From NCBI GenBank assembly GCA_012033495.1, contig JAAUQT010000024.1, forward strand, positions 1 through 38,442: a stretch of DNA of 38,442 nucleotides, given 5' to 3'. The position numbers were made by a program, and so were the translations under genes. The stretch is from Cyanobacteria bacterium RM1_2_2. Its GTDB lineage: Bacteria > Cyanobacteriota > Cyanobacteriia > Elainellales > Elainellaceae. The notes under the pieces are model-generated. The model was not told where the DNA came from and searched no databases. It was given only the letters and a program-made list of their open reading frames with translations. Below are positions 17,678 through 36,554 of the stretch, one piece after another; the first letter of the stretch is position 1; the number at the start of each line of letters is the position of its first letter.

Positions 17678-17718
17678 AGCAGAGATAGCGGCCTAAAAAC
17701 AAGCTATCCCTGCTTTTT
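17678..17718 (+). terminator. Intrinsic terminator of the sugar cassette
   Basis: AGCAGAGATAGC (17678-17689) and GCTATCCCTGCT (17703-17714) form a 12-position stem with a single A/C mismatch, directly followed by a run of five T residues (17714-17718). This is a textbook rho-independent terminator 33 bases after the SAF-domain gene. A 14-bp tandem duplication (ctttttgcatagaa, 17713-17740) begins inside its T tract. Confidence 0.85.
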
Positions 17719-17821
17719 GCATAGAACTTTTTGCATAGAATATAGACCCGTTAATTTGGGTATTCTCAAAGCAGTAGTGTACTTTAATGAAAAGTCCTCC
17801 TCCACTTCTGGTAGCAAGTCT

Positions 17822-18142
17822 ATGACTGAGAATAGCGATCAAGTTTCAGAAGTCAGCCACACTGACAACTGCGGTAGGAAATCTACTGCTCAAGAGACAG
17901 TTGTGAGCCTCAAACTGCCAGCCGATTTAACAGAAAAACTGCAACAGTACAGCCAGCAATCTGGTAAAACTCAGGGCGAAATTATCTTAGCGATCTTGAA
18001 GTCTGCGTTAACCAAAATGACGCCAGAAGCACTCATTGATCCAATGGCGTTGAAAATGCAGCAGGAGTTGAAACTACTCAAGGCACGCCTCAGCGAATTA
18101 GAAACTTTGATGCCGCGATTGGAGGCACTGGAGGGAAAGTAG
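17822..18142 (+). CDS. Ribbon-helix-helix (CopG-like) protein; zero-frame product
   Basis: This small protein of 106 residues, if ended at the TAG (18140-18142), has a Ser/Glu-rich head. A ribbon-helix-helix-like segment follows at about residues 26-62 (TVVSLKLPADLTEKL, then a helix pair), the dimeric DNA-binding fold of CopG/Arc proteins. A coiled coil (MQQELKLLKARLSELE) occupies about 75-102. The frame is open upstream to 17666, but the ATG at 17822 avoids an unlikely leader. The gene ends with the heptamer G_GGA_AAG immediately before the stop, and a zinc-ribbon frame continues in -1, so a longer 251-residue product is possible. Its DNA targets are unknown. Confidence 0.82.
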   Translation: MTENSDQVSEVSHTDNCGRKSTAQETVVSLKLPADLTEKLQQYSQQSGKTQGEIILAILKSALTKMTPEALIDPMALKMQQELKLLKARLSELETLMPRLEALEGK

Positions 18143-18185
18143 ATGGCCTTCTGAGCAACCCAGTCACTTCACCTCAGAAGGCCAT
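18133..18185 (+). promoter_or_regulatory. Candidate -1 ribosomal frameshift site: slippery heptamer plus stem-loop
   Basis: The bases G GGA AAG at 18133-18139 are an X XXY YYZ heptamer in the correct register for the upstream frame. The zero-frame stop TAG follows at once (18140-18142). A perfect 13-bp stem begins at 18143: ATGGCCTTCTGAG (18143-18155), a 17-base loop, then CTCAGAAGGCCAT (18173-18185). The spacing of 3 bases, or 5 if the outer A-T pairs open, is near that of known bacterial -1 signals. Alternatives are an ordinary stem-loop inside a gene broken by a missing base in the GGGAAA run, or a terminator without a T tract. Confidence 0.65.
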
Positions 18186-18576
18186 TCGTTCAGAAAATAC
18201 ATCAGAACAATCCTCTGATTCAGCAAATGCATCGCAGTCTCATTCCCCTACTACAGCAGAGGTCGGTTCTTCAATTGCAACATTGTGGCTTAAAGTTGGA
18301 CAGGAAAATCAGCCGCCCGCCTCGATTCCTTCCACATTGGCTGCTTCAGGCCAATGTCCTCGGTGTGAACAGCCCTTAGCTCCACCGTTGCAATCTTCCG
18401 GGCGCCAAGTTTGCATGAAATGTGGCTGGACTAACCAACCCAGAAACCCGAATGCCAATGCAGGCACAGCAGAACTTGCAGCCGAACCCACCGACACGGA
18501 TTTGCTCAATCTGCTGGAAAAGGCAGCTTTTGAGTCGCTGAAAAATATGGAACCACGCAAAAAACCAAAGCGTTAG
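18139..18576 (+). CDS. Zinc-ribbon C-terminal extension in the -1 frame
   Basis: This frame is open from upstream of the ribbon-helix-helix gene's stop to 18576. Between 18139 and 18573 it gives 145 residues: a Ser/Thr/Ala-rich linker, then a zinc ribbon with CPRC and CMKCGW about 20 residues apart, then a Lys-rich tail. The frame contains no ATG or GTG from the heptamer onward. The first usual alternative start is a TTG at 18283 without a clear ribosome site. It therefore looks like the second half of the preceding gene, reached by a -1 shift, giving a 251-residue fusion. A sequencing or real deletion would give the same picture. The zinc-ribbon call itself is firm. Confidence 0.72.
   Translation, partial: VDGLLSNPVTSPQKAIRSENTSEQSSDSANASQSHSPTTAEVGSSIATLWLKVGQENQPPASIPSTLAASGQCPRCEQPLAPPLQSSGRQVCMKCGWTNQPRNPNANAGTAELAAEPTDTDLLNLLEKAAFESLKNMEPRKKPKR

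Positions 18577-34362: not shown

Positions 34363-36554
<2,192 letters not shown>

Follow-up and report, generated by a model that had tools for sequence, protein, structure and literature searches.

Here we describe a cyanobacterial gene that, to judge from its own sequence and that of its relatives, is very probably decoded by programmed -1 ribosomal frameshifting, a reading to which we assign a probability of about 0.92. The gene lies on a 38,442-nucleotide stretch of DNA, analysed here at its full length and hereafter called the window, from the genome of Cyanobacteria bacterium RM1_2_2 (genome G000 in our comparisons). The likely outcome of its decoding is a set ratio of two proteins, a short ribbon-helix-helix (RHH)/coiled-coil protein and a 251-residue form that carries a zinc ribbon. 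Since the arrangement is conserved in 15 related species, comparison of the sequences indicates that it is not a sequencing error.

An earlier note, made from the letters of the window, had described an in-register slippery heptamer with a stop right after it, a 13-bp stem and a 145-codon -1 frame with a zinc ribbon, and all of these elements are present (Table 1). The zero-frame product, as read from the window, comprises 106 amino acids and ends in LEALEGK, the heptamer GGGAAAG stands in the register G GGA AAG with TAG directly 3' of it, the two arms of the stem are complementary at 13 of 13 positions, and the 145-residue product of the -1 frame contains the motifs CPRC and CMKCGW. The fold of positions 18125-18225 has a z-score of -3.5, with a stability equalled in none of 200 shuffles, and the combined pattern of heptamer plus stem occurs once in the window, compared with a mean of 0.00 over 100 shuffles. 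The frameshift stretch is single-copy in the source genome, and an Rfam scan of the window at the gathering cut-off gave no match. Upstream of the gene, CTTTTTGCATAGAA is found in two tandem copies (17713-17740).

Table 1. Features of the frameshift gene, in positions of the window.
Feature	Position	Strand	Basis
Zero-frame ORF, 106 aa plus TAG (short product, with RHH-like domain and coiled coil)	17822..18142	+	homologues
RHH-like domain; expected strand at residues ~26-32, modelled helices at 34-47 and 51-64	17897..18013	+	AlphaFold2 (pLDDT ~80 here), Foldseek, Pfam
Predicted long helix, probably coiled coil, residues 74-105, reaching the shift site	18041..18136	+	model; conserved heptad-like L/I/V pattern
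Slippery heptamer G GGA AAG	18133..18139	+	conservation, codon test
Invariant Glu codon GAG 5' of GGA AAG; its last G is heptamer base 1	18131..18133	+	GAG in 15/15
Zero-frame stop TAG, G000 only	18140..18142	+	
Zero-frame stop TGA within the 5' arm, conserved in relatives	18152..18154	+	
Stem, 5' arm	18143..18155 (conserved core 18146-18155)	+	
Stem, 3' arm	18173..18185 (conserved core 18173-18182)	+	
-1 frame, 145 aa plus stop; C-terminal extension of the predicted 251-aa trans-frame product	18139..18576	+	homologues, dN/dS
Conserved linker motif GSSIATLWLKVGQENQPPASIPSTL	18265..18339	+	alignment
Zinc-ribbon-type CPxC...CxKCGW module	18355..18429	+	
C-terminal helix and basic tail LLEKAAFESLKNMEPRK, common to stand-alone zinc-ribbon relatives	18493..18564	+	

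With the zero-frame protein as a query against 60 relatives, 17 matches were obtained besides the window itself, in 14 of which (one cut by a contig end) the zero frame stops at the corresponding point and a related C-terminal part follows in the -1 frame. Extending the search by profile to all 36 species of the family, we obtained a match in 30, and the offset arrangement was found in 15 of the 36, representing 10 genera with the source genome counted and including one complete, single-contig genome (G006). All 15 share the invariant GAGGGAAAG and a stop in the zero frame, have a stem of 10 bp that begins 6 nt downstream, and carry the C-terminal part in the -1 frame, in line with the programmed frameshift that the earlier note had proposed. 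Elsewhere in the family, four relatives carry a single uninterrupted frame (G008 and G026; G023 and G031), one (G004) retains a shorter, in-frame gene that lacks the zinc ribbon, and nine apparently possess only a stand-alone zinc-ribbon protein of ~84-105 amino acids; the gene was not found in G003, like G004 a member of the window's genus. An order-level search returned the same 36 genomes as the family-level search, matches outside the family in a sample of 386 genomes from the phylum were all weak and partial, and a tblastn search of a plasmid collection with the C-terminal part gave no match. Scanning 84,980 species for the heptamer-plus-stem pattern produced 14 hits, 12 of them genomes of this group, and the genomes recovered include Elainella saxicola, Drouetiella hepatica, Pegethrix bostrychoides, Phormidium tenue FACHB-886 and Filamentous cyanobacterium CCP2. 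Hits in Pseudovibrio and Bacillus, which have another spacing and no related reading frames, were set aside as chance occurrences.

The shift site is constrained at the level of its nucleotides. In a codon alignment of the 14 complete offset genes, scored by the pairs sharing an amino acid that also share its codon, the codons GAG GGA AAG show the same synonymous choice in 273 of 273 pairs, compared with a codon sharing of 0.36 upstream and 0.35 downstream of the cassette; over the 16 codons following the slip the value is 0.72. The Leu codon just 5' of GAG varies freely (shared in 20 of 91 pairs), and because rpoB of the offset genomes uses GGA for 17% of its Gly, GAG for ~41% of its Glu and AAG for 60% of its Lys codons, the identity of the slip-site codons is not a matter of codon preference. 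The Glu codon before the heptamer is GAG throughout the offset genomes, and its invariant GA may be part of a signal that extends into the E site (GAGGGAAAG); a review notes that nucleotide usage in the E site ahead of shift sites is biased (PMC5009743).

For the stem, the earlier note had given a perfect 13-bp helix with a spacer of 3-5 bases, and the helix is as described in the window, but the relatives keep a core of 10 bp (GCCTYCTGAG / CTCAGRAGGC) that starts 6 nt 3' of the heptamer, the outer 3 bp not being kept. Similarly, the TAG right after the heptamer is present in G000 alone among the compared genomes; the stop that relatives keep instead is the TGA inside the 5' arm, which in the window forms a second zero-frame stop. 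Nine of the ten core pairs form in 15 of 15 sequences, and the loop-proximal pair is missing from two. At one core position three related genomes have C-G in place of U-A, probably through one event, with a shuffle control that was not decisive. Covariation is thin, and the case for the stem therefore rests on its retention despite synonymous freedom and on its folding energy, with hairpin z-scores of -1.4 to -6.0 across the offset genomes. Stimulators usually begin 5-8 nt downstream of the heptamer (PMC4066793), a range that includes the 6 nt observed in the 15 genomes. A pseudoknot or conserved loop pairing is unsupported, the loop sequence not being conserved among the offset genomes. A Shine-Dalgarno-like site 6-17 nt upstream was found in 9 of the 15, too few for such a stimulator to be retained as a defining part.

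Homologues in one uninterrupted frame, which the earlier note had set against its own reading, do exist (n = 4), but in these the heptamer and stem have been lost together. An rpoB tree places G008 and G026 as sisters of G009, which has the frameshift, and nests all three among further species that have it; the divergent neighbour gene seen in many frameshifting species is retained in G008 and G026 too. Their junctions lack the heptamer and a stable stem, with minimum free energies of -7.8 and -9.6 kcal/mol over 54 nt compared with -15 to -28 kcal/mol for the offset genes. G023 and G031, of another genus, likewise have one frame without heptamer and stem, and read ...AEVDRLLQ... where the shifted product would read ...GKVDRLLS.... 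Thus the signal is present where the frames are offset and absent where they are joined, and the single-frame fusions in these relatives identify the joined protein as the product that their lineages keep. With regard to the number of origins, the tree allows one gain followed by several losses, or more than one gain.

In the mechanism we propose, ribosomes on the RHH/coiled-coil frame would arrive at G GGA AAG and be paused at the heptamer by the 10-13-bp hairpin starting ~6 nt downstream, where tRNA-Gly on GGA and tRNA-Lys(UUU) on AAG could re-pair with GGG and AAA. After this inferred slip ...LEGK-VDGLLS... would be read into the -1 frame, and ribosomes that do not shift would terminate within 0-4 codons. 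Two N-coterminal products are predicted. The shorter has 106 residues and consists of the RHH-like domain and coiled coil; in the longer, of 251 residues, the coiled coil would lead into a linker rich in Pro and Ser, followed by a zinc-ribbon-type module and, at the C-terminus, a basic helix. In E. coli, G_GG.A_AA.G ranks among the top three -1 motifs for efficiency if a stimulator is present (PMC4066793). UUU is the only tRNA-Lys anticodon found both in the complete G006 (47 tRNA matches) and in G000 (34 found, in an assembly ~92% complete), and an argument from a single tRNA has been made likewise for dnaX in a review (PMC5009743). We infer from this arrangement the slip and its efficiency, as well as DNA binding, zinc binding and a regulatory role of the products: these may form a DNA-binding oligomer in which a set frameshift ratio would fix the number of zinc-ribbon modules displayed. 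A more speculative and rather unlikely version is that the frameshift acts as a regulatory dial and not as a fixed ratio, such that slippage on AAG by the sole tRNA-Lys(UUU) would vary with a cellular condition such as zinc level, tRNA-Lys charging or growth state, and thereby change the number of zinc-ribbon modules on the RHH complex, with an autoregulatory loop that would act on the divergent neighbour or on the promoter of the gene itself.

On the basis of sequence patterns and structural modelling, an RHH protein with a coiled coil is the probable product of the zero frame. The RHH domain named in the earlier note agrees with the fold matches, but the profile scores are weak (Pfam RHH_1, 17.2 bits for the window protein, below the cut-off of 20.5; E<=0.1 in 6 of 15 members, best E 2.3e-4) and the significance of the fold matches is low, the top Foldseek matches in the PDB all being RHH proteins (CopASO, AmrZ, Arc, NikR, CopG) with E values of at least 0.3, none of them significant. 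In the AlphaFold2 model of this product, which was folded separately from the C-terminal part, two RHH-type helices are followed by a long helix (mean pLDDT 68), and the heptad-like pattern of the shifted product crosses the junction in the alignment (LExLEGKVDRLL). The -1 part contains a conserved GSSxAxLWxxVxQxxxPPASIPSTL stretch and ends in a helix terminating in NMKPRK. Between these lies a zinc ribbon with two Cys pairs (CxxC...CxxC), of which CPxC and CxxCGW are conserved in most members and for which zinc binding is predicted; its profile matches eS31/S27ae at ~1e-4, the nearest ribbons being those of eS31/S27ae and TFS/RpoM.

Among the alternatives to programmed frameshifting, the one that fares best, although it is improbable, is that of two separate genes, with the -1 frame translated by reinitiation or internal initiation after the stop and the hairpin serving another role. 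This would suit the stand-alone zinc-ribbon proteins that have their own ATG in nine relatives, as well as the GTG found as first -1 codon in a few offset genomes, but ATG, GTG and TTG are all absent from the open -1 frame upstream of the slip in each of the 15, and ahead of the first Cys pair the genomes share no start codon at a common position, so that reinitiation would lack a conserved start. The lack of an ATG or GTG that the earlier note had ascribed to the whole -1 frame holds 5' of the zinc ribbon, where the only start-like codons in the window are two TTG, but not beyond, as ATG codons encode the Met of CMKCGW and that of NMEP. Furthermore, protein conservation of the -1 frame begins at the shift site, the fusions described above show that lineages retain the joined protein, and initiation has no need of an invariant in-register GGGAAAG.

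A second alternative, that of a decaying gene pair whose palindrome is a repeat element or terminator, is very unlikely. It draws on the degraded zinc ribbons of three genomes and on the absence of the family from some others, but dN/dS is well below 1 in both frames: in the two closest, unsaturated pairs (G033/G028 and G034/G029) we obtained 0.13 and 0.12 for the zero frame and 0.25 and 0.23 for the -1 frame, and both frames are thus under purifying selection in closely related species. The cassette, moreover, is single-copy, stands at a constant place with respect to the heptamer, lacks a U-run and is better conserved than other parts of the gene. As seen in the profile search and alignment, the zinc ribbon is damaged in G001 and G002, both of the window's genus, and G009 has lost the ribbon while keeping the shift cassette and tail. 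Because the ribbon has decayed in these genomes with the cassette retained, selection may not everywhere act on the zinc-ribbon form, and in some species may instead favour an RHH protein with the linker motif. In three frameshifting genomes (loci L008, L005 and L009) the zinc ribbon is damaged or deleted while slippery site and stem are intact, a pattern that suggests either that the linker motif has a role or that selection has recently relaxed.

Transcriptional rather than ribosomal slippage at GGGAAA would result in the same frame change, but is just as hard to credit given homopolymer runs of at most three and a heptamer that is constrained in the register for tandem tRNA slippage and coupled to a conserved hairpin at ribosomal spacing. 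Finally, a base missing from the GGGAAA run of a single-frame gene through sequencing or assembly error, the rival that the earlier note itself had raised, is practically excluded by the recurrence of an identical offset, heptamer and stem in 15 separately assembled genomes from 10 genera, among them the one-contig G006, by a synonymous constraint confined to the cassette, and by single-frame homologues that lack heptamer and stem, which frameshifting predicts and error does not. Indel errors or true indels do occur in this assembly, as indicated by a frame break in ligA (NAD-dependent DNA ligase; 34363-36548, minus strand) on the same contig, where the adenylation/OB/zinc-finger part lies in one frame and the HHH/BRCT part in another. 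The earlier note had pointed to such breaks in two other genes here, neither with the stem-loop. The ligA break does not resemble the frameshift locus: it is confined to G000, and the gene is intact in relatives, forming one frame of 695-785 codons in 10 of the 12 searched (the other two are partial, probably at contig ends). The break is likely to be an assembly indel or a recent mutation.

Programmed frameshifting of this gene has parallels in several known systems. Bacterial dnaX (gamma/tau in E. coli) resembles it in being a chromosomal gene with an X_XX.A_AA.G heptamer, a downstream stem-loop and two N-coterminal products. E. coli dnaX uses A_AAA_AAG with an upstream Shine-Dalgarno stimulator, whereas a Shine-Dalgarno-like site is not conserved in the present gene; there the shift makes the short form and here it would make the long one, and the proteins are unrelated. 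A minority of dnaX genes have a reversed architecture, in which the long form arises by the shift and a stop stands right after the site (PMC5009743), and this is the arrangement of the present gene. Similarly, csoS2 (Cso2) of alpha-carboxysome operons is a bacterial chromosomal gene in which only part of the family shifts, with an efficient -1 shift, a 3' stem-loop and no apparent Shine-Dalgarno stimulator, predicted for 79 of 162 species (PMC5009743), although its protein is unrelated and its lineage and gene function are different. Elements of the IS3/IS1 type also pair a small DNA-binding N-terminal protein (OrfA) with a longer -1 fused form (OrfAB) from overlapping frames, and G_GG.A_AA.G is found among IS heptamers (PMC4066793). 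An insertion-sequence orfA/orfAB was nevertheless rejected for the present gene, which lacks a transposase domain (no transposase family match in either frame), is single-copy and lies in conserved neighbourhoods. Translational frameshifting is also reported for Mg-chelatase chlD, a chromosomal gene family in prokaryotes (PMC9227772) that is unrelated to the present gene.

The mechanism itself is known. In the literature searched, which included the text of the 2013 prokaryotic survey, no earlier report of this family, or of a frameshift in these cyanobacteria, was encountered. Ordinary bacterial chromosomal genes, as opposed to those of phages and mobile elements, have few conserved -1 frameshifts. 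In the present case both of the modules to be joined can be recognised, one as a probable DNA-binding domain and the other as a zinc ribbon. The family also supplies natural controls in the form of close species with the shift, with a permanent fusion or with the zinc-ribbon part only, which makes it directly testable why two forms in a set ratio, and not one fusion, are produced. Since gene callers are expected to report only the short ORF, annotations probably overlook the longer protein.

A divergent conserved gene (MRLGKVVKSNSHCDY...) adjoins the frameshift gene in 10 of 20 loci, two of them single-frame (L107, L109, L111, L112, L114-L117, L121, L122), ~0.5-1.4 kb upstream of the shift site on the opposite strand; a Pfam search with it gave no match, and it is a candidate regulatory target. 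The stand-alone zinc-ribbon proteins of related cyanobacteria (84-105 amino acids) share a homologous zinc ribbon and an NMKPK-type tail with the -1 part, but differ in having their own ATG, no RHH/coiled coil and no frameshift. Homologues of this type at L020, L046, L047, L050, L051, L053, L055 and L056 follow the pattern MPLxxCPKC...NMKPK, and several of them have a diguanylate-cyclase-like gene downstream and a gene for a small Cys-rich, probable membrane protein upstream.
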